A DNA stretch of 10,399 nt, from the NCBI GenBank assembly GCA_020346805.1, contig CP070790.1, positions 444,288 through 454,686 of the forward strand, read 5' to 3'. Source of the DNA: Planctomycetota bacterium (GTDB lineage: Bacteria; Planctomycetota; Phycisphaerae; UBA1845; PWPN01). Below the pieces are notes generated by a model. It searched no databases. It saw only the letters and a list, made by a program, of their open reading frames with translations, and was not told the origin of the DNA. Shown in pieces: positions 1-10,201 of this stretch (position 1 is its first letter; each line of letters starts with the position of its first letter). The translations under genes and the position numbers were made by a program.

Positions 1-3000
1 GATCCATAACCGCCGTAAAAACGCGATCGGGAGGAACCGCTTTTCTGTTGCAGTTCCTGATATTTGGTTTCCAGAATGGGCTGGACCATGTCGGCAACAT
101 CCGAGGGGCGGGCCTGCTTGATATCGTAATGCTTGATCACCAGGGTCATATCTTCACCCTGGCGGGACTCCAACATCTTTTTGACCATTTCGTCGATTTC
201 TTCCATTCGGGTAGATGGAGCCGATACAATCAGCATATTGCTGCCATACTCACCAAAAAACTTGACCGGGGATGTCGACGAGCGTCCATAACGATCTCCT
301 CCAAACATCTCCCGCAGGTTTCGGGCCAGATAATATGTGCCGTAATAATCTGTAGTTTCCACCATATAGGTGCGGACCTCGTTATCTTTGGTGGGATCGG
401 TATCCAGTTGGGCAATAACCTCTTCGATTTCATCCATCTTGTCCTTGGGGGCAAAAACAACAATACCTTTATCGAAATCCTGGACCCTGACATCCCCGGG
501 TGAAGATGTGCGAGAGCTTCTATACCTGTCTTCTTGGTACAAGGCCTCGATAACGTTCTCCAGCTCTCGACCTTCCATATACTTAAGTATAAATGTCTTG
601 CGAATATATTCTTTGGCGGCATATTCCTGATCGATTTGTTTGGCCAACGTCTCCGCCTTGGTGAAATCCTCTTCGGATGAGGAAACCAGTACGCGGCTGC
701 TCACCGATTCGGGGACAACGCGGAATGGAGTCTTCTGAGACCCGCCGTATCTATAGCTATAGCGACTCTCTGCAAAGAGCTCTTCAAGTTTCTCGGCGAC
801 ATATTCGGGATCTGCGTTTTCCAGAGCTATAGCCCGGAATTCGGCCTCATCCGCCGGTCCCGGCTTATCCAATTCCGCCACCAACTGCGCAGCTTTATCC
901 TGATACTCTTGAGTCGCCGTGACAATCACAGAATTGCCGGTTGAATCGTAAGTAACATTAAACGCAGAACCCGATTTTCTCGCTCCATCTCTAAATCCAT
1001 AATTAATTGCCGAAGATGCGGTCGACGCCTGGGCATACTTGAGCTGATAGACCTGGGTTAATACCTCTTCACCGGGTATATCCATTTCGGCAATCAACTG
1101 GGCGGCTTTTTCTTGATACTCTTGGGTGGTAGTGACAATTACCGTATTGGTGGTTGTATCATAGTTGACAGAAAATGGTGCATTTTTTGTTCTGGCAAGC
1201 GTATAAAAAGCATTATAAACTGCCGTATACACCGACGATGCGGTAGCGCTTTTCAGTTGATAGGTCTTAGGACTGGCAACCGCGTCAGGATCCTGCACAT
1301 CCATTTCGGTGATGATTTTGGCGGCTTTTTCCTGAAACTCTTCTGTTGTCGTAACAACCACCTTATTGCTTGTTGTATCATAGTTAACGGAAAACGGTGC
1401 ATTCTTTGTGCTGGCCAGCCTATACAAACCATTATAAACCGCCGAATAAACACTCGAGGCCGAAGTATTTTTAATTTGATATGTCTTGGTATCCGCCGTC
1501 TGACCTTCGACATCCATCTCGGCAATCAACTGGGCGGCTTTCTCCTGATACTCTTGGGTGGTAGTGACAACCACCGTATTGGTGGTTGTATCATAGTTGA
1601 CAGCAAATGGTGCATTTTTTGTTCTGGCAAGCGTATAAAAAGCATTATATACTGCTGAATATACCGAGTATGCGGTTGCATTTTCCAATTTATACGTTTT
1701 CGGACTGGCAACCGCTTTAGGATCCTGCACATCCATTTCGGTGATGATTTTGGCGGCTTTTTCCTGAAACTCTTCTGTTGTTATAACAACCACCTTATTG
1801 CTTGTTGTATCATAGTTAACGGAAAACGGTGCACCTTTGGTGCTGGCCAGCCTATATAAACCATTATAAACTGCCGAATAAACACTCGAGGCTGAAGTAT
1901 TATTAATTTGATATATCTTGGTGTCCGCTGTCTGACCTTCAACATCCATTTCGGCAATCATCTTGATAACTTTTTCCTGAATATCATCCGTTGCCGTAAC
2001 CACCACATAATTATTAGTCGTATCATAAGTTGTATAAAATGCCGCACCCATACTACTGGCTACTCTATAGAAGGTATTGTAAACCGCCGAATAAACCGAC
2101 GAGGCGCTGGCATGCTTGAGCCGATATACCTTGGTCGATGTCGGCTTGCTTTCCACATCCATTGCGGCAATCGCTTCCGCCGTCTTCTCGTGCCATTCTT
2201 TGGTGGCGGTAACAATCACCGCATTGTTTTTCGTATCGTAACTCACTGAAGGCATGGCCGGATCACCATATCGGCCTCGGGGGAATGAGCTGCTATAAAA
2301 CTGATTCAGAGCCGAATAGACCGTAGATGCCGACGTATTCTTGATTTGATAAGCTTTAGTTGTTTTTTCAACATAACCTTCCTCTTCGATTTTCTTGATC
2401 AGTTTTTCGATTTCCGGCCAGTTTTCCTCTTTGCAAAGAATAACCAGGGTCTTGGATGAATCTTCAGACATAAATTTCGGCAGCCCCGAAGCCGCAGAAT
2501 AGCGAGAATACCCACCTCCGCCGGCTGCATAGCGTTCTGAAAGAAGCCGGGACAGTGTCGACGGAGTACTATATTTAAGCGTAACCACATGCTCCTGGGC
2601 CCCTTGATTTGGATCGACATCGAGTTCTTCGACCATGCCCATGACTTCTTCGAGCTGCTTCACGTCTATGGCACTGATAACCAATCCTTTGGGATTTGAC
2701 TGGTCGGCAAGGGCCCTGAACTGTCGGCCGTCGCTGCGACGCGATCGGGGATCAGCCCCGAAGACGCTGGAGAAGGTCGAGGCCACTGACGATCCCTGGG
2801 CATGCTGCAAAATCACATATTTGTAAGTGGATTCTTCTTCCGGTACATCCAGATCCTTGATGTAGCCTTTGATTTCTTCCATCTCATCGGGTTCGGCCTT
2901 GACCAGAATAGCCCGCATCTTGGGAACCGGTTGCAGAACCGCGGTGGTTGGTTCCTTCTGCATACGCGCGGGTGGCGGAGGCTTTGGTGGTTGCCCACGT

Positions 3001-4463
3001 TTAACGGCAGGTGCCGGGGGCTGAACCATCCTCATCTCACCCAGCATTTGCTTAACAATATTAACGACTTCGTTAGGATCGGCGTGTTCCAGCCGAATCA
3101 ACTCTCCCCGGTCTTTTGCACCTGACGGTATATCTATATATGTTTCAAGCAACTCCTGAACCAGCTTGTGCTTGGCCGGCGAGGCCCGTACCAAAAGCCT
3201 GTTCAAGCGTGTATCTTCCCGAATATCTACCGAATCGGCCGTTGACATACCTACACCACTTATGGCAGGTTGGGGGGGCGGCGCCGGGGTTCGAGTTGTT
3301 CTGCTCGTTCTGGACGGCTGAACCCGGGGAGCAACAGCGGTAGGTGTTACGCCACCCGAATCCGGCAGCAAGGCATACAACATTGTAGAGGCGTCGCTAG
3401 GGGAGGCATGTTTTAGGGTATATACTTTCAATTCCCGGCCGTCACCGCCCTGAAACTCGTTACCGCGGATAAATTCCAACTGTTGTTCGATGTAATAAAC
3501 AAAACCTCTAAGCTCGATTAGATTGCTATTCGGAATGATGGTGGCACGAGCGGAATTAAGAGGCACTTTATCCACCGCCACCGTGGCCAGCCAATCCGCA
3601 GAAGCCTCCTTCGGCTGATATACTACCGAAGCCACTTCCCACAAAGGGAGCTTAGCTTTTTTATATTGCTCGACCGTGTTATAGGCCCGTTCCGGTGGGA
3701 TATGACGATACCACTCGGTCATCTTACGAATCACCAGATAACTGCCGCGTCTGACAACCCAGAAATCCATCTCCGAAATGATTATGTTGAAGGTGGTGAG
3801 GGCCTCATCATAAGTCATCAACTTGACGCTCTGGAAGCTGATCTTCTTGGCCGGTTTTGTATCCATCGTACTAAGGCCGACCATGCTCAGTCCACTCATC
3901 TCCTCAAGGTCCTGACATATTTGATCAAAAGATGCATCTTTCCAGGAAAAGAAATACGGTCGATCCTCCGGCGGAAGCTGCCACCATCCGGGTTCAAGTT
4001 TTTTCAAGTCGGGTGCGTCTTTTGAAGGGGTGGACGGAGCTTTAGTCGGCACTGCTCTGGGTGCAGGTTTGGGCTTTTTCGCCGACGCCCTGGCTTGTTC
4101 TTCCAGCTTTTTCAGCTCCTCATCGGTAACATCTTTCAGTTTATTGGCATCAATCTTCATCTTGCTGGGATCGGCTTCCGGCCGCCTTGATGTTACAGGC
4201 CGCCGCGTCACCGGAGCCGGGCGGGTGGTCGAAGCCGGCCGCGTTGCGGTGGGCCCTCCCGTCTGCTTCTGGGTACGGCGTTGGGCAGCCAGTCTTTCGC
4301 GCCTGGCCCGCGCCGCATCCAAGGCCTTTTTCCGCTCTTCGGGTGTTTGCGCTTTCGGTGCACCAAATGAGGGACTCGACCATAAGCCCGCAAAAAAGCA
4401 CATTATTAATAGTACGGGCAGGACTCTTCCGACGTATGCCATGTTGCTTCGTTTGTTTTTCAT
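1..4463 (-). CDS. gspD: Giant GspD-like secretin with tandem N-domain modules (3' end beyond window)
   Basis: Open for 1487 codons from ATG 4463 to the left edge; the C-terminus is not seen. Residues 1-35 look like a Sec signal peptide (basic start, hydrophobic VLPVLLIMCFFAGLW, likely cleavage after FGA). Residues 36-166 are a charged, Pro/Ala-rich linker. Residues 167-248 resemble a secretin N0 domain (FSWKDASFDQICQDLEEMSG onward, ending in YLVIRK). From 249 onward there are about 15 complete N1/secretin_N-type modules of roughly 71-111 residues, each with a strand such as YQLKNAS, a helix, a strand pattern like NxVVVTTT, and a helix ending in AEMD or similar; a sixteenth begins at 1439. Approximate module starts are 249, 342, 453, 545, 622, 698, 770, 841, 912, 985, 1056, 1129, 1200, 1279 and 1355. 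Modules starting at 342 and 453 carry Pro-rich inserts. Secretins form the outer-membrane channel; in GspD the N-domains form stacked periplasmic rings. The beta-barrel secretin domain should follow to the left but is unseen, so gspD is inferred from domains and operon. Confidence 0.82.
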   Translation of the reverse strand, partial: MKNKRSNMAYVGRVLPVLLIMCFFAGLWSSPSFGAPKAQTPEERKKALDAARARRERLAAQRRTQKQTGGPTATRPASTTRPAPVTRRPVTSRRPEADPSKMKIDANKLKDVTDEELKKLEEQARASAKKPKPAPRAVPTKAPSTPSKDAPDLKKLEPGWWQLPPEDRPYFFSWKDASFDQICQDLEEMSGLSMVGLSTMDTKPAKKISFQSVKLMTYDEALTTFNIIISEMDFWVVRRGSYLVIRKMTEWYRHIPPERAYNTVEQYKKAKLPLWEVASVVYQPKEASADWLATVAVDKVPLNSARATIIPNSNLIELRGFVYYIEQQLEFIRGNEFQGGDGRELKVYTLKHASPSDASTMLYALLPDSGGVTPTAVAPRVQPSRTSRTTRTPAPPPQPAISGVGMSTADSVDIREDTRLNRLLVRASPAKHKLVQELLETYIDIPSGAKDRGELIRLEHADPNEVVNIVKQMLGEMRMVQPPAPAVKRGQPPKPPPPARMQKEPTTAVLQPVPKMRAILVKAEPDEMEEIKGYIKDLDVPEEESTYKYVILQHAQGSSVASTFSSVFGADPRSRRSDGRQFRALADQSNPKGLVISAIDVKQLEEVMGMVEELDVDPNQGAQEHVVTLKYSTPSTLSRLLSERYAAGGGGYSRYSAASGLPKFMSEDSSKTLVILCKEENWPEIEKLIKKIEEEGYVEKTTKAYQIKNTSASTVYSALNQFYSSSFPRGRYGDPAMPSVSYDTKNNAVIVTATKEWHEKTAEAIAAMDVESKPTSTKVYRLKHASASSVYSAVYNTFYRVASSMGAAFYTTYDTTNNYVVVTATDDIQEKVIKMIAEMDVEGQTADTKIYQINNTSASSVYSAVYNGLYRLASTKGAPFSVNYDTTSNKVVVITTEEFQEKAAKIITEMDVQDPKAVASPKTYKLENATAYSVYSAVYNAFYTLARTKNAPFAVNYDTTTNTVVVTTTQEYQEKAAQLIAEMDVEGQTADTKTYQIKNTSASSVYSAVYNGLYRLASTKNAPFSVNYDTTSNKVVVTTTEEFQEKAAKIITEMDVQDPDAVASPKTYQLKSATASSVYTAVYNAFYTLARTKNAPFSVNYDTTTNTVIVTTTQEYQEKAAQLIAEMDIPGEEVLTQVYQLKYAQASTASSAINYGFRDGARKSGSAFNVTYDSTGNSVIVTATQEYQDKAAQLVAELDKPGPADEAEFRAIALENADPEYVAEKLEELFAESRYSYRYGGSQKTPFRVVPESVSSRVLVSSSEEDFTKAETLAKQIDQEYAAKEYIRKTFILKYMEGRELENVIEALYQEDRYRSSRTSSPGDVRVQDFDKGIVVFAPKDKMDEIEEVIAQLDTDPTKDNEVRTYMVETTDYYGTYYLARNLREMFGGDRYGRSSTSPVKFFGEYGSNMLIVSAPSTRMEEIDEMVKKMLESRQGEDMTLVIKHYDIKQARPSDVADMVQPILETKYQELQQKSGSSRSRFYGGYG
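867..2372 (-). repeat. Array of seven closely related N1-type modules in the secretin gene
   Basis: Codons 698-1199 encode seven successive modules of 71-73 residues sharing the pattern YxxKxxxASxVYSA, then F or Y, then a YDTTxNxVVVT-like strand and a helix ending in MD or LD. They are much more alike than the flanking modules, pointing to expansion by tandem duplication. Lengths are 72, 71, 71, 73, 71, 73 and 71 residues in translation order. Confidence 0.85.
1080..1943 (-). repeat. Two tandem copies of a 432-bp, two-module unit
   Basis: The stretch 1512-1943 is repeated at 1080-1511 with a constant offset of 432 bp. Each copy encodes one 71-residue module (starting VEGQTADT) and one 73-residue module (starting VQDP), 144 residues in total. 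By eye the protein copies differ at about 12 of 144 positions, and several nucleotide blocks of over 30 bp are identical. This is a recent in-frame tandem duplication that keeps the reading frame exactly. Confidence 0.92.
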
Positions 4464-4628: not shown

Positions 4629-5696
4629 TTATCCCGGTCCCTTGGTTATACCCCCAGACCTCTGTTGAAGTTTCGACAATTCATGAAACACCGCGGGGTA
4701 ATCTTCCTTGGTCAAAGGTTTACACTCTTTAAGCTTTAATCCCATGGGATGAAATCGCCATTGGCCTTGTTTATCCGAGACGGCCCCTGTGGGATGGACG
4801 AAAACCAACGTACCTCCATAGAGCGTTTCACCGACTTCCACCCGTTTATCCTCAGCATTTTTGTTGCGCTCATCCTCCAGTACCACCTGCTGGCCTCGTG
4901 GTGAACTGAGTATACGCCTCAGGGCCAGTTCACTGTCCGGCGGAGGGGGAGGCGGTTTGGGTGGGGATGGGGGCTTGGGTCCCGTCCCCGTCGGTCTTTG
5001 TACGGTGGTAGGCCTGGGTCTGGGCGTCGGCTTAAAAGCCTCAAATAACTCGGGCTTGATACTTTTTTGGTAGTCATTCAACGAGGCAAACGCCAGACGA
5101 TCGGGAACTTCCGCCGGTTTGGTCTGGGCCAATTTGGTCTCTATCATCTTTGCGGGAACCGTCTTGTTCGAAGGAAGGATCAGCGTTTCAAAATGAGCGT
5201 CCATCTTCAGTTGACCCTGCTTTTTCTTATCGGAGACCAAACCAATTTCCAAATGCGTACAGCGAACCAGATAATGTTGACGATGAATGTTGAATAAAAA
5301 TTGGACGACCTGTTGTAGTCTGCCTTCAGAAGTTACACGAAATTCCAGCGCTTTTACGCCGTTCTTGCCAACCTTATCCTCCTTTTGATTCAACTTGATA
5401 ATCGCTTGACCCATACCGGACTTTGAAGCCAACTCATTAAGTTTGTCGCGTAATCGTTCTTTGGTCTGATTCAAATCCGTGGAAATTGTCTGCATACCTG
5501 TCTCAAACCACTCATTTATGCCCTTAACCGCTCGTCTCTTTTCCGCTTTGGCGATCGTGTCTTTCTTTACTAAGCTGCTTATCTTGTCATCCAAACCATC
5601 AATCTTGGCTTCGTAGCTCCTCTTAACTGTGCGACCGACGGCTAACAAGCCAAAGATGGCAAGAAAGACTATCAGAAATTTTTCACGCGGATTCAT
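4629..5696 (-). CDS. gspM: GspM/PilO-like inner-membrane protein with C-terminal GspC/PilP-like domain
   Basis: 355 residues from ATG 5696. Residues 1-6 are cytoplasmic, 7-21 a membrane helix (FLIVFLAIFGLLAVG), and 22-95 a charged region likely to form a coiled coil. Residues about 115-178 resemble the ferredoxin-like PilO/GspM periplasmic fold (ALEFRVTSEGRLQQVVQFL onward). A proline-rich linker occupies 222-254. Residues about 257-328 are a small beta-rich domain with RRILSSPRGQQVVL, VGETLYGGTLVFVHPTGAV and LKLKE, a pattern reminiscent of the GspC homology region or PilP, which binds the secretin N0 domain. In T2SS, GspM pairs with GspL, and GspC bridges to GspD. The location between gspL and the secretin gene fits both roles. 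A GTG at 5702 would add two residues. No strong ribosome binding site is visible. The GspM call rests mainly on position and architecture; the C-terminal assignment is weaker. Confidence 0.7.
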   Translation of the reverse strand: MNPREKFLIVFLAIFGLLAVGRTVKRSYEAKIDGLDDKISSLVKKDTIAKAEKRRAVKGINEWFETGMQTISTDLNQTKERLRDKLNELASKSGMGQAIIKLNQKEDKVGKNGVKALEFRVTSEGRLQQVVQFLFNIHRQHYLVRCTHLEIGLVSDKKKQGQLKMDAHFETLILPSNKTVPAKMIETKLAQTKPAEVPDRLAFASLNDYQKSIKPELFEAFKPTPRPRPTTVQRPTGTGPKPPSPPKPPPPPPDSELALRRILSSPRGQQVVLEDERNKNAEDKRVEVGETLYGGTLVFVHPTGAVSDKQGQWRFHPMGLKLKECKPLTKEDYPAVFHELSKLQQRSGGITKGPG

Positions 5697-5743
5697 AAAC
5701 ACACACTCAATTACTATCTACAAACACAACAATTCTCTCTTGG

Positions 5744-7330
5744 CTACGACTCCGGAAGCAGCGATTTAAGTTTCAAATAAATTTTATCCTTATATGGATA
5801 TTTCGGATTCTTCTTATTGGGCTCCCAGTTGCCGGGCGCGGCTAGAAAAACGGGATCGCCTTTTTTATCCTTGATCTCCGAAATTGCATTCACGATTTTG
5901 GTGCCCACTTTTTTATTGACGGCGACCAATTCAACATTCATTTCCCCTTTGTCGGTACTAAATGCTAACTTGGTAATGTAGCCTTCCTTATTGGAGGGAA
6001 AAATGTCGGCCAACTGCTTCAGCGGGTCGATCCAGGCGACGCTTTGCCCTTTCCATTGTCTCACGTCGTTCAACTGGTCCATTAAATCCTCATAGAGTTT
6101 TATCTCTTTCTCCGAGTTTTTGACTTGCTCGGTAAGCAAATCGATCTCGGCGTTCCTCCACCTGATGGGGTTGTAAGCCGTAACACCGGCCGCCGCTACA
6201 AACAGCGCTACCGTAGCGGCAATCACCGGCATACGTTTTACCCGTTCCCGGCGTTGGGCTTCGGGCTCTTTCGGATTCAAAAAGTCGAAACGATAGGCTC
6301 CCTCAATAGTGGAGCTTAATGCCAAGCCAACAACCGAACAGAACGGGGCGGCAGACTGTTGGACCGCCTTGGGCCATCGTAAAGATCTTGGGGCCTCGTA
6401 AATCTCGGTGGAGACGTTGTTGAAACGGGTTTCAAAAGCTTCAACCACCGTCTGATCGACTCCCACCGTTCCAGCTAATATTATCCGGTCGATCTGAGCG
6501 GTGGGATCGGTTGACCGGTAAGCTTGAATGGTCCTGCTGACTTCAATCAACAATGTCTCCATAGGGCTTGGCCGGCCGATATGATCGTCAGCAAGCGGAA
6601 TTCCTTCATCGTCACCACTGATTTTCAAGACAGGTTGATTACCGTCAGAATAGTCCTCTAATCCTTCGGGGGGTATCGATACCGCAGCGGCGCGGGAGTA
6701 TACCAGTCGGCCGTCTCTAAGTATGTCGATTTCCGTCATGGCCGGGCCGATATCCACTATCATTGTGTACCCCGCAGGGGCTTCTTCCGATACCGTGGCC
6801 ACCTGATGGGCATAAGGACGCAGCCCGATACGTTCGAGTTTCAAACCGGCAGCTACAATCGCTCGTTTATAATTGTCAAGCACCATATTGCGGACCGCTG
6901 ACATCCATACCTCACAGGTTTTGGCTTCCCCTTCAGGCTCATGAGTCAGAGCAAAATCAATTACCGCTTCATCCTTACTAAAAGGAAGATCCTTGGCCGC
7001 CTGGATATGCACCATAGCCGCCAGTTCATCTGTTGAACCTTTGGGCAGGGATATCAGATTCAAGACCGCATCTTGCCGCGGGATATCCACGATCGCCCTT
7101 CGTGTACGAATACGGTGTTCGCCAAGCGTGCGACGAATAGAATCACCCAGCGACGCCGGATCGCGAATATTGGTACCGGGAATCATGGGAACATTAACTG
7201 CCCTTCGAATGCGGATACCCGCTCGAGACAGGCTCGCATCCACAATACGAAGGGAACACTCGTCCCAGTCAATACACAAAACACTTCGATCACCAATCGG
7301 TATACGCAAGACCTTCACTCCTCTCGTCAT
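5744..7330 (-). CDS. gspL: Type II secretion inner-membrane platform protein GspL (PilM-PilN-like)
   Basis: 528 residues from the chosen ATG. Residues about 8-355 form a PilM/GspL-type actin-like domain: CIDWDECSLRIVD (19-31) as phosphate-1, IVDIGPAMTEIDIL (191-204) as phosphate-2, and IILAGTVG (283-290) as the adenosine-motif strand. A basic stretch (RRERVKR) precedes a membrane helix at about 369-386, then a heptad-like segment (391-425) and a PilN/GspL-like periplasmic domain. In T2SS, GspL binds the GspE ATPase in the cytoplasm and GspM in the periplasm. The start is ATG at 7330, overlapping gspK by 41 bp. A GTG at 7369 is in frame but would overlap gspK by 80 bp. A TTG at 7309 with AGGAG 8 nt upstream is an alternative that would remove seven residues. 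The protein is longer than the usual GspL of about 400 residues. GspL is preferred over a separate type IV pilus PilM because of the adjacent gspJ and gspK and the single-chain membrane anchor. Confidence 0.85.
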   Translation of the reverse strand: MTRGVKVLRIPIGDRSVLCIDWDECSLRIVDASLSRAGIRIRRAVNVPMIPGTNIRDPASLGDSIRRTLGEHRIRTRRAIVDIPRQDAVLNLISLPKGSTDELAAMVHIQAAKDLPFSKDEAVIDFALTHEPEGEAKTCEVWMSAVRNMVLDNYKRAIVAAGLKLERIGLRPYAHQVATVSEEAPAGYTMIVDIGPAMTEIDILRDGRLVYSRAAAVSIPPEGLEDYSDGNQPVLKISGDDEGIPLADDHIGRPSPMETLLIEVSRTIQAYRSTDPTAQIDRIILAGTVGVDQTVVEAFETRFNNVSTEIYEAPRSLRWPKAVQQSAAPFCSVVGLALSSTIEGAYRFDFLNPKEPEAQRRERVKRMPVIAATVALFVAAAGVTAYNPIRWRNAEIDLLTEQVKNSEKEIKLYEDLMDQLNDVRQWKGQSVAWIDPLKQLADIFPSNKEGYITKLAFSTDKGEMNVELVAVNKKVGTKIVNAISEIKDKKGDPVFLAAPGNWEPNKKNPKYPYKDKIYLKLKSLLPES

Positions 7331-9218
7331 CTCGCACTGGATAGCCGATTCCCAGCGAGGTAACCTCACAATAGTATTTGATACGTGATAGATGACCTTG
7401 CATCTCGACCACCGCCCGTATTCGGCAAGTAGTGCCTATATGATCGGCAAAACCAATTGCATCAATATTAAATTGAATCGATCGCGCGGTTAACATGTTT
7501 GAAACTAAAGCGAAAGTTTCAGATTCCAATATGCCGGCGGTTACCAACCAGGCAGTTGTCATTTTTTCTTCGCCGTCAATCTGTTGACGTTGTGAAACAA
7601 TCGTATCCACTTGTGATTCCGATAATCCCGGAACGGTTAGCAATACCATCTTAGGCGCCGTGTTTACGTTAATCAGACCCTGCAAGGTAGGCGAACTTAC
7701 CGCCGTTAAACGATCCAGTAGTATCGACATATCCTGTGCCGTAACCGGGCTTGGGATCGAATCCCCTTTTTCCTTCTTCTCTTCCCCTTCGTCGCCTGTT
7801 GATGGCTTTTTGTCGTCGTCTTTGACAATATCTTTCCCCCGACGACCGGACTTGCCCCGTAAGCCCCCGCCTCCGGGCCGGTCTTCTTCCTCTTCCTCTT
7901 CCATCTCCCCCTCTTCCCCATCCCGGTCATCTCCATCTTCTATATCGGTTTCTCGTTCGTCTTGGTCATCGACGTCCTTGTCCCCGGACTCGTCTCTTTC
8001 CTGCTCATCCTTTTCTTCATCAAGCTCCAATTCTTCTTTTTCTTCTTTTTCCTCTTCTTCCTCTTCATCTTCTTCTTCTTCAACTTCCTGGTCTGGTTTT
8101 TCCGCAGCGGCTAGCTGTGTTTCAAAATTTTCCCATGCTTTGTCATAATTCGCACTGCCGTCTTCATACACCTCAAGTCCCAAAAGTTCCCCTACCGACC
8201 GGAATTTATATCCCCTCTTCTGGGCCTCGACGATAAAATCGACAATGTCCGGTCTAAGCTCATCGACCAGATATTTGATGGATTCCGGACATTCTTCACA
8301 CCCCGATTGAAGTTCGCTGAATTTGAACTTATTTATATCTATGCGCTGTTTGTTGTCGTTTGCTCTATTCTGATCCCAGGAATAAACCGTCAGATAAGAC
8401 AATAAGCCGCGATCTAAAGATCCATTGGCGTCATCAATGGGGAAGGTTCCCTCCGTACCATCGTCTTCATTAACCTCCATATACCCGTTGCGGTTGAAAT
8501 CCTCGCCATACAGCAGTTGGCCGTCGAAACCCTTGACCATCAAAAGCTCTTCAACGGTTTCAAAGGGCCTGTTTTTGGCACTGTAGGACGGCTCCAGGCC
8601 AAGATAGTAACTACTTTCGGCACCGTCAGTGGAATTAAGCTTGTCGTCGGCATCTCGCCAATCAATTAATGCATCGGCCAGTTCCTTGGCGGTCACATCC
8701 TCGCGCCTAAACTGCTCCTGATTGAATAACTTCAGCAGTTGCCATCGCGAAGCGGTGTTAATATTTATCTTACTGGCCTCGTCGGTCAGGCCGTAGCGCA
8801 TCTTTACCTCTTCGGTGGTAGACTCCTGGACTTGATAGGAAACGATACTAAAGCGCCAGGCAGGCTGACCTTCCACTTCCTCCTGGTCTGCCAAATTGGT
8901 TGAACCGCCTTTCTTATCCGGCGCCCATACCAGAATTCTCCGAAACGCTTCCGGATTGTTGTACCACATATCCATATCCGTGCGCTGTTCACGCAGCAGT
9001 AAGGTAGCTCGAGCGATTCCCGATTCAGCGGCCAGCCTGGCCTGCTGCGTTTCACGTATGGCGTTTACCGAGGCCAAATCGGCGTTCATGCGGAAAGAAA
9101 AGCTCACCCCCAATAAGGACAGCATGGCAATAATCACCAACACCACAACAATTAACATCCCCCGCCGAGTGGTGGTCGAACATGGCTTCATTATATGACA
9201 ATTATTCGACACCATCAT
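7290..9218 (-). CDS. gspK: Type II secretion pseudopilus tip protein GspK, with large acidic insert
   Basis: 642 residues, about twice the usual GspK length. Residues 1-20 are a leader ending in RRG; cleavage before M21 leaves a helix (LIVVVLVIIAMLSLLGVSF) with no Glu at mature position 5, as is normal for GspK, the subunit that caps the pseudopilus. Residues 144-157 (LTDEASKININTAS) and 512-544 (LQGLINVNTAPK onward) are helix-hairpin-helix-like segments characteristic of the T2SK family. Residues 240-251 (DFNRNGYMEVNE) fit an EF-hand loop with ligands at positions 1, 3, 5 and 12; calcium sites are known in GspK of enterotoxigenic E. coli. Residues 374-488 form a Glu/Asp/Lys-rich insert. A CEEC motif lies at 307-310. 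The ATGA overlap with gspJ indicates coupled translation. The choice between ATG 9218 and ATG 9215 changes only one residue. Confidence 0.92.
   Translation of the reverse strand: MMVSNNCHIMKPCSTTTRRGMLIVVVLVIIAMLSLLGVSFSFRMNADLASVNAIRETQQARLAAESGIARATLLLREQRTDMDMWYNNPEAFRRILVWAPDKKGGSTNLADQEEVEGQPAWRFSIVSYQVQESTTEEVKMRYGLTDEASKININTASRWQLLKLFNQEQFRREDVTAKELADALIDWRDADDKLNSTDGAESSYYLGLEPSYSAKNRPFETVEELLMVKGFDGQLLYGEDFNRNGYMEVNEDDGTEGTFPIDDANGSLDRGLLSYLTVYSWDQNRANDNKQRIDINKFKFSELQSGCEECPESIKYLVDELRPDIVDFIVEAQKRGYKFRSVGELLGLEVYEDGSANYDKAWENFETQLAAAEKPDQEVEEEEDEEEEEEKEEKEELELDEEKDEQERDESGDKDVDDQDERETDIEDGDDRDGEEGEMEEEEEEDRPGGGGLRGKSGRRGKDIVKDDDKKPSTGDEGEEKKEKGDSIPSPVTAQDMSILLDRLTAVSSPTLQGLINVNTAPKMVLLTVPGLSESQVDTIVSQRQQIDGEEKMTTAWLVTAGILESETFALVSNMLTARSIQFNIDAIGFADHIGTTCRIRAVVEMQGHLSRIKYYCEVTSLGIGYPVRDDERSEGLAYTDW
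7755..8099 (-). other. Acidic low-complexity insert within gspK
   Basis: Codons 374-488 of gspK encode mostly Glu, Asp and Lys, with runs of up to six or more Glu, ending in a short Gly/Arg-rich patch (PGGGGLRGKSGRRGKD) and a mixed-charge tail. The flanks carry the conserved GspK fold, and the reading frame stays open through the insert, so this is an in-frame insertion between the two halves of the protein rather than a frame error. On the plus strand the same bases give a CT-rich tract that would read as polyserine, which is an antisense artefact. Confidence 0.85.
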
Positions 9219-10201
9219 AATCCCTCCTGACGTCCCAACTGCAATGAGCGCGACGCACCGTATTTACGTGAGCTGAGGAGCGTCCTATCTGCCTGATTTA
9301 AATATACCACAACCGTAAACCGATCGGGATGATACTCTTCGCGCTCGCGGCGTTCCTCTAAATCTTCATCTTCATTAAGATCAAATTCCTCTTCGGGATT
9401 GACCCTTTCTTGTCCTACCGTGATTCTTACTGCCTGAGGTAAGACATGTTCTCCCTCCTCCTGCTCACAGTCTTCACATTCTTCCGACTGAACCCCACCT
9501 TCATCTTGTCCTCCCCCCTCTTGCCCCTCTTCAAATGCCACCCGCCAGGCATCGTGCCATTCTGCTCCATCGAAATACTCAAATCGCAGATATTTGATTT
9601 CCGGTGCAAAAAGTTCCGTCTCGCTCTCGATCACCTTTTTGACTTTCTTCTCTTGTTGCTTATCTGATCCCGGCTCCTCTTCAACAACTACGTAGGCGGG
9701 ATTGGGATCGAAGGTCTTTTGTTCGGAGCGCAATAACCCATGACATAATTTCACTCCCTCATCATCCACAAATTCATCGTCCCAAAGTAACTGGTAGGAA
9801 ACCCTCCGGATGTCCATCTCTGCGGGGGGCGCATCCTTAAATATCGAATTATACTTATTAAAGGCATTATGCCGATCGGGCATGTTTACATAGACAATAG
9901 TAATGGAATCTTCGGAACCTTTGAATCCCCTTCCATCCCCCGGCAAAATATCTGTAGCATGGCGAAGCTCATTTATTATCCGCGCTAACACCGCACGGGT
10001 CAGCATCACATCTCGAGTTATCTTGCCGCCATCATGACGCACCCGTAACGTATTAGCATAAAAACCATACACCCCGGAAAGAAGGGCAATCATCAACGAC
10101 AGGGCAAGGATTGCCTCAAGCAAGGTAAATCCCCGAAAATGGGCGCGGTCGTAACCTGCTTTTTTCATCGGCACGTCACTTTTTGTCTTTTCAAACGCCA
10201 T
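9215..10201 (-). CDS. gspJ: Type II secretion minor pseudopilin GspJ
   Basis: 328-residue prepilin-like protein. Residues 1-24 are a basic leader ending in RG, followed by FTLLEA: this is the class III prepilin peptidase site (cleavage between G24 and F25, Glu at mature position 5) and then a hydrophobic helix to about residue 48. The C-terminal half has YFDGAEWHDAWR (209-220) and LPQAVRITV (254-262), both typical of GspJ. GspJ forms the pseudopilus tip with GspI and GspK in the periplasm and primes pseudopilus assembly. The protein is longer than classical GspJ (roughly 200 residues) mainly because of acidic stretches around 171-197 and 223-289, including a CEDC motif at 242-245. ATG at 10201 is chosen because of the AAAGG site and the 8-bp spacing to asnA. 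The TGA stop overlaps the gspK start. GspJ rather than another minor pseudopilin is supported by these motifs and by gspK following directly. Confidence 0.9.
   Translation of the reverse strand: MAFEKTKSDVPMKKAGYDRAHFRGFTLLEAILALSLMIALLSGVYGFYANTLRVRHDGGKITRDVMLTRAVLARIINELRHATDILPGDGRGFKGSEDSITIVYVNMPDRHNAFNKYNSIFKDAPPAEMDIRRVSYQLLWDDEFVDDEGVKLCHGLLRSEQKTFDPNPAYVVVEEEPGSDKQQEKKVKKVIESETELFAPEIKYLRFEYFDGAEWHDAWRVAFEEGQEGGGQDEGGVQSEECEDCEQEEGEHVLPQAVRITVGQERVNPEEEFDLNEDEDLEERREREEYHPDRFTVVVYLNQADRTLLSSRKYGASRSLQLGRQEGL
9223..9228 (-). promoter_or_regulatory. Strong ribosome binding site of gspK
   Basis: Minus-strand AGGAGG, a full Shine-Dalgarno match, lies inside the last codons of gspJ. Two ATG codons follow in the same frame: at 9218 (spacing 4 nt) and at 9215 (spacing 7 nt). 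The second has the more usual spacing, so the true start may be one codon downstream of the annotated one. Confidence 0.6.

Follow-up and report, generated by a model that had tools for sequence, protein, structure and literature searches.

Giant GspD-type secretins with long arrays of N1-type domains in the Planctomycetota

Secretins assemble in the outer membrane as ring multimers of 12–19 copies, and the known GspD-type secretins carry an N0 domain and three N1-type domains on a single chain. Across described secretins the number of periplasmic ring domains runs from about two to six, with two in the phage f1 protein pIV (PMC8563730) and six, N0 to N5, in PilQ of Thermus thermophilus, which is called one of the largest characterised and whose rings are said to extend across most of a wide periplasm (PMC5745081). 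In Klebsiella, the PulD channel together with the HR domains of PulC projects about 20 nm into the periplasm (PMC6882859). Here we describe a 10,399-base stretch of DNA (the window), one whole contig of a 73%-complete metagenome-assembled genome (MAG) of a Planctomycetota bacterium (CP070790.1, positions 444,288 to 454,686), which carries on its minus strand the beginning of a gene for a giant GspD-type secretin (3..4463, hereafter D1). We consider this gene best explained, with a probability of about 0.7, as the first of two genes for one giant secretin of a type II secretion system (T2SS), which would form an end-to-end tube of stacked rings across a wide periplasm.

The giants share with proteobacterial GspD, PulD and ExeD the signal peptide, the N0 domain, N1-type domains of the β-α-β-β-α pattern, the PF00263 barrel and the T2SS partners, and direct sequence and fold matches connect the two groups; unlike these secretins, however, the giants spread 34–69 modules over one to three chains. 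Their likeness to Thermus PilQ would lie in the long stack of N rings, which in PilQ is said to stand across most of a wide periplasm, whereas they differ from it in having several times more modules, T2SS-type partners and split genes. The nearest short relatives found for the giants' barrel and N0 are the GspD proteins of Armatimonadota, with 793–971 amino acids (aa) and three to four modules in complete frames, and those of other planctomycete classes; in a phylum sample of 147 genomes, 137 of them from other classes, the longest barrel frame from those classes among the matches listed has 1413 aa. Deltaproteobacterial secretins have two modules.

The window gene and its barrel-bearing counterpart

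D1 is open from its ATG for 1487 aa and is then cut by the contig end. Pfam's Secretin_N matches it at E 1e-104 and the gspD model TIGR02517 at E 1.9e-91; because the latter score, 307 bits, lies under the 351-bit cut-off, D1, a fragment without the barrel that this model covers, is not classed as a TIGR02517 equivalog. A signal peptide occupies residues 1–34 (4362..4463); its hydrophobic core, of mean hydropathy 2.47, lies at residue 14, and its end is approximate, the cleavage site having been judged by eye. A Pro/Lys-rich stretch then leads to the N0 domain (residues 168–261, 3681..3962), identified by a profile match, a predicted model and a PDB match; Pfam's own N0 model does not match the window protein (P0001) and falls just under its 27-bit cut-off in P0147 and P0156 (25.8 and 24.6 bits). 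The N1 domain (residues about 272–340, 3444..3650) was missed by the hidden Markov model (HMM) of the module built here, and is recognised by its β-α-β-β-α pattern in the predicted model and by a match to PulD N0–N1 over 163 residues. The same HMM places module 1 at residues 346–440 (3144..3428) and modules 2 to 14 at residues 456–1430 (174..3098), with inter-module linkers of 5–19 aa, and of module 15 (3..134) only the first 44 residues precede the contig end. In total D1 holds N0, 15 complete N1-type modules (N1 and modules 1–14) and part of a 16th, which confirms the first-pass annotation of a single frame with a signal peptide, an N0 and about 15 complete modules.

That annotation had also read the protein as a secretin of N0 and N1-type domains and had proposed checking the fold of the modules. 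Both the sequence matches and the predicted structures support the reading: the modules have the fold of the GspD N domains, and modules 9–11, modelled with a predicted local distance difference test (pLDDT) score of 94, form three β-α-β-β-α units in a GspD-like arrangement, whereas KH-like and other folds appear in the fold searches at lower Z. The array has also grown by copying within the gene, in that modules 7-8 and 9-10 (1080..1960) are tandem copies of one pair of modules, with a period of 432 bases and 91% matches by Tandem Repeats Finder, modules 7 and 9 being 94% and modules 8 and 10 89% identical. Across all 91 module pairs, identity does not exceed 36% in 70 and passes 80% in just 2, so most of the modules are not copying errors. 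Module counts given here come from our own HMM, trained on the same proteins, and therefore exceed Pfam's strict counts (14 against 12 in P0001, 41 against 30 in P0002, 55 against 33 in L057); they may shift by one or two (22 or 24 in G023, 54 or 55 in G016). Pfam alone recovers 50 modules in P0147 and 40 in P0156. For alignment, non-overlapping module triples were used (A4: four window rows and 60 of 70 triples, drawn from 176), and overlapping triples (A3) were discarded, MAFFT having slid identical modules onto one another.

The PF00263 barrel is absent from the 1487 aa of D1 that are present. On another contig of the same genome, a 1618-aa gene that starts 63 nt from the contig end combines 14 Secretin_N stretches with a Secretin barrel (E 7e-51), and its product groups with the second genes (D2) of relatives. 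Its 14 modules correspond one to one to modules 33–46 of the relative G011, all in the second gene, and modules 1–4 and 12–14 of P0001 match modules 1–4 and 6–8 of G011; together, 22 of 24 reciprocal hits fall in order, against 12 in the best of 500 shuffles. Between the matched points P0001 holds extra modules, including those of the 432-base duplication. If the missing part resembles G011 modules 9–32, the whole system would have an estimated 38 + 14 modules. D1 and the barrel gene lie on different contigs of an incomplete MAG, and their adjacency is for this reason taken from the relatives; the system thus appears to possess a PF00263 barrel, presumably through this gene. Because the secretin is split in the window's family, D1 itself very probably lacks a barrel of its own. 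The first-pass annotation had held that an extended gene without a barrel would speak against a secretin; such a gene is probably what exists here, as the first gene ends without a barrel in those relatives of the window's family where this can be resolved, but the secretin reading stands, with the barrel in the next gene.

Exactly 100 N flank the window on both sides, in an assembly made of contigs joined in this way, so the sequence to the left is no evidence of linkage. A leftward continuation of D1 was sought there and rejected: the frames beyond the 100 N belong to an ABC transporter contig, and a frame spanning the N run was not accepted as an extension.

Split and fused giants among relatives

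When a 350-aa N-terminal piece was searched against 31 genomes (the window's own and 30 relatives) and whole loci were fetched, a match was found in 25, with frames of up to 5021 aa. Ten genomes have split systems of adjacent genes, the first without and the last with a barrel, in which the modules number 30+14 (G003), 32+14 (G011 and G006), 32+15 (G009), 36+11 (G004), 55+14 (G016), 25+15 (G027), 23+14 (G019), 24+12 (G023) and, in three genes, 9+13+14 (G013). Seven relatives have instead a fused single frame of 4144–4890 aa, and the six of these that could be counted whole hold 34–41 modules and a barrel. Across 16 relatives a system therefore has 34–69 modules, and the exceptional length claimed at first pass (about 15 or more) was far understated. 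The remaining 13 of the 30 relatives received no split or fused call: G010, G014, G020, G024 and G025 gave no N-terminal match, and in G001, G002, G005, G007, G008, G012, G017 and G030 the contig or scaffold breaks off within the gene or shortly beyond it (in G017, the gene is cut by a 100-N gap). In G001 (locus L051, 800-5389, minus strand), the first gene stops after 12 modules and the remaining 799 bases of the contig hold no module-bearing frame, which may mark another split point or a frameshift. Contigs end inside the giant gene in the window and in L047, L050, L053 and L065, as is expected of a long repeat array, and true lengths may thus be under-reported in MAGs.

Outside the window's order, probably UBA1845, 11 of 20 listed single-frame giants were fetched and have 36–61 modules, the largest being 6169 aa. 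Three overlapping sets of protein clusters were retrieved with the barrel of a fused protein (258, of which 120 are listed), with the first-gene N0 region (102) and with the barrel of the 6169-aa protein (838, of which 120 are listed). Among the 311 proteins listed in total, 283 have a barrel, with 2794–6165 aa and 23–64 modules (median 39, quartiles 37–44), and 28 without a barrel have 19–38 modules; exactly one N0 was found in 303, none in 7 and two in 1. Many genomes of the class Phycisphaerae have a giant T2SS secretin, either in one frame with up to 64 modules and a barrel or in two or three neighbouring genes with up to 69 modules. Among 120 genomes sampled from this class, at least 30 show the barrel in a frame not shorter than 2000 aa, and other families of the class have short barrel frames only, among the matches listed. 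A scan of named genomes with P0001 gave no match and was then run with the barrel alignment; the giant-bearing named loci are labelled Phycisphaerae, Phycisphaerales, Phycisphaera(ceae) or only Planctomycetota, with one Planctomycetia (L122), and the early guess of a planctomycete source was right. A 1324-aa secretin with seven modules in a member of the Thermoguttaceae (L139, 7301-11272, plus strand) is of intermediate size and lies outside the Phycisphaerae. In public records these proteins are named "secretin N-terminal domain-containing protein", "type II secretion system protein D" or hypothetical. The sequences are thus already public, and the architecture seems undescribed; a search of the open-licence literature, with subscription papers and preprints outside its scope, found no description of giant or multi-gene secretins.

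The split and fused forms are collinear module by module, with 25 of 31 hits in order between split G011 and fused G026 (best shuffle 11). In G013 the gene borders stand where fused giants have breaks in the array, and in four of seven fused relatives a signal-peptide-like stretch lies at the break. This three-segment layout fits both the fusion of separately exported proteins and the splitting of one. On the barrel tree, in which a short Thermoguttaceae row sits on a long branch inside the giants, 4 changes are needed for the fused state and 3 for the split one; a single origin of each is compatible with the starred branches, so the tree does not decide the direction.

A proposed tube built in series and its rivals

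Nearly every system has a single N0 and a single barrel, in an order that is the same whether one, two or three genes encode it, which points to one tube built in series. In the arrangement that we propose, a single N0 would lie at the inner-membrane end of the chain, followed by a few dozen ring-building N1-type domains in D1, and the next gene would supply about 14 more and the outer-membrane barrel. The two proteins would be exported separately and their copies would stack end to end, giving a hollow tube of perhaps 100–200 nm that joins the inner-membrane platform to the outer membrane and through which the pseudopilus and the substrates of a GspE/F/G-L/M-J/K machine would pass. Its length would be set by the number of modules, which may multiply by tandem duplication; at roughly 3 nm per ring, we estimate about 115 nm for 39 modules, 155 nm for 52 and 205 nm for 69. 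More tentatively, at a little short of even odds, such secretins may be serial and multi-subunit, with two or three different polypeptides, each a stack of 9–55 domains, docked end to end into one tube of 100–200 nm whose length is encoded in the number of modules and matched to a wide periplasm. Cleavage might even take place at the signal-peptide-like stretches that mark segment borders in fused members, in which case all members would work as several chains.

Several observations weigh against a continuous tube. The giants are known here from sequences and single-chain predicted models, from which we infer the tube itself, with rings along its whole length, end-to-end docking and a fit to the periplasm. 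D1 and its barrel gene, as noted, are on separate contigs. Module order is only partly kept between distant families, 10 of 19 hits in order between G026 and G015 equalling the best of 500 shuffles. In this order, long module-free stretches (mostly 170–430 aa), for which a rigid continuous tube has no need, interrupt the stack: among 120 listed fused giants, 108 have exactly two breaks of over 120 aa, 8 have one and 4 have three. Finally, while the planctomycete periplasm is described in general as enlarged (PMC11131199), the open-licence literature yielded no usable measured envelope for the Phycisphaerae.

These breaks are also what lends some credit to the strongest alternative, in which only the N0/N1 end and the last modules by the barrel form rings, and the long middle acts as a flexible, bead-like tether between the channel and the platform in place of the GspC linkers. 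GspC (PF11356) was found in 0 of 31 genomes, with E. coli and Caulobacter controls positive (short-secretin lineages and other orders were not searched), and in Klebsiella PulC spans the periplasm (PMC6882859). The lack of GspC would also suit a tube that itself reaches the inner membrane, and may mean nothing, the short-secretin phyla lying outside the search. Moreover, the linkers between the window modules are short, a model of three of these modules shows a GspD-like arrangement, and in 9 of the 11 giants taken from other families of the class no break exceeds 120 aa. We therefore regard a tether as unlikely.

Far less probable is that D1 encodes a separate exported repeat protein, for example an adhesin, within a T2SS operon. 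Its own signal peptide and the absence of a barrel in the first genes of the window's family would fit such a protein, but in other families N0, modules and barrel follow one another in one polypeptide, the N0 profile matches D1 and not D2, and the modules of D1 and D2 largely keep the order of the fused protein. That the arrays are expanded or mis-joined assembly artefacts, as the contig ends inside the gene and the contigs joined by 100 N in some genomes might suggest, is largely contradicted by N-free giant frames in the single-contig genomes G056, G018 and G022, by the many protein clusters retrieved and by the divergence of the modules in the window protein, and we give it almost no weight. 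A plain GspD was likewise considered and set aside.

Should the proposed tube exist, it could rank among the longest protein tubes that span a cell envelope, its ring domains numbering up to ten times those of described secretins, and the split genes suggest that it would be coded in series by different subunits. The family allows a direct test of N-domain number as a molecular ruler for periplasm width, and bears on the working of such a machine where the periplasm is unusually wide, and on the possible passage of a filament or folded enzyme along a tube longer than 100 nm.

Secretion partners and other secretins

Upstream of D1, on the same strand, lie four further genes. The first (4629..5702, minus strand) encodes a 357-aa protein assigned as GspM solely by its place between the GspL-like gene and the secretin; it matches no Pfam family at E<=1 and has no credible NCBIfam match (best E 0.05). 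The GspL-like protein with a PilM domain (5744..7369, minus; PF11104, E 5.4e-28) has a match in 30 of the 31 genomes, its own included. A 642-aa GspK minor pseudopilin with an acidic insert follows (7290..9218, minus), over the cut-off for PF21687 (E 1.3e-16) and under it for NF037980 (E 2.3e-28), and adjoins a GspJ-like minor pseudopilin (9215..10201, minus), whose matches to N_methyl (0.0024) and T2SSJ (0.013) are weak and below cut-off; the relative G026 has a likewise weak GspJ match at the equivalent place. Elsewhere in the MAG, a GspG over its cut-off stands beside a GspF under its own, and there are nine GspE-family matches. In G026, F, H, I, J, K and L form one cluster, with H, I and J recognised by weak matches. 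Partners for a T2SS (GspE, F, G, J/K and L/M) are accordingly all predicted for the window's genome, GspJ weakly and GspM by position.

The GspK insert is long and rich in Glu and Asp, with a TTC repeat at 8031-8081, and the GspK frame overlaps the listed start of the next gene by 80 bases. The genome (G000) has 46 matches to the GspG pseudopilin model, one of them over the cut-off, which amounts to a large set of prepilin-type proteins. It also encodes a second secretin of ordinary size (673 aa; L006, 5997-8018, plus strand), with no N1-type module at 1e-3, near a pilin-like gene and, by eye, a PilM-like gene; this is probably a separate pilus-type system.
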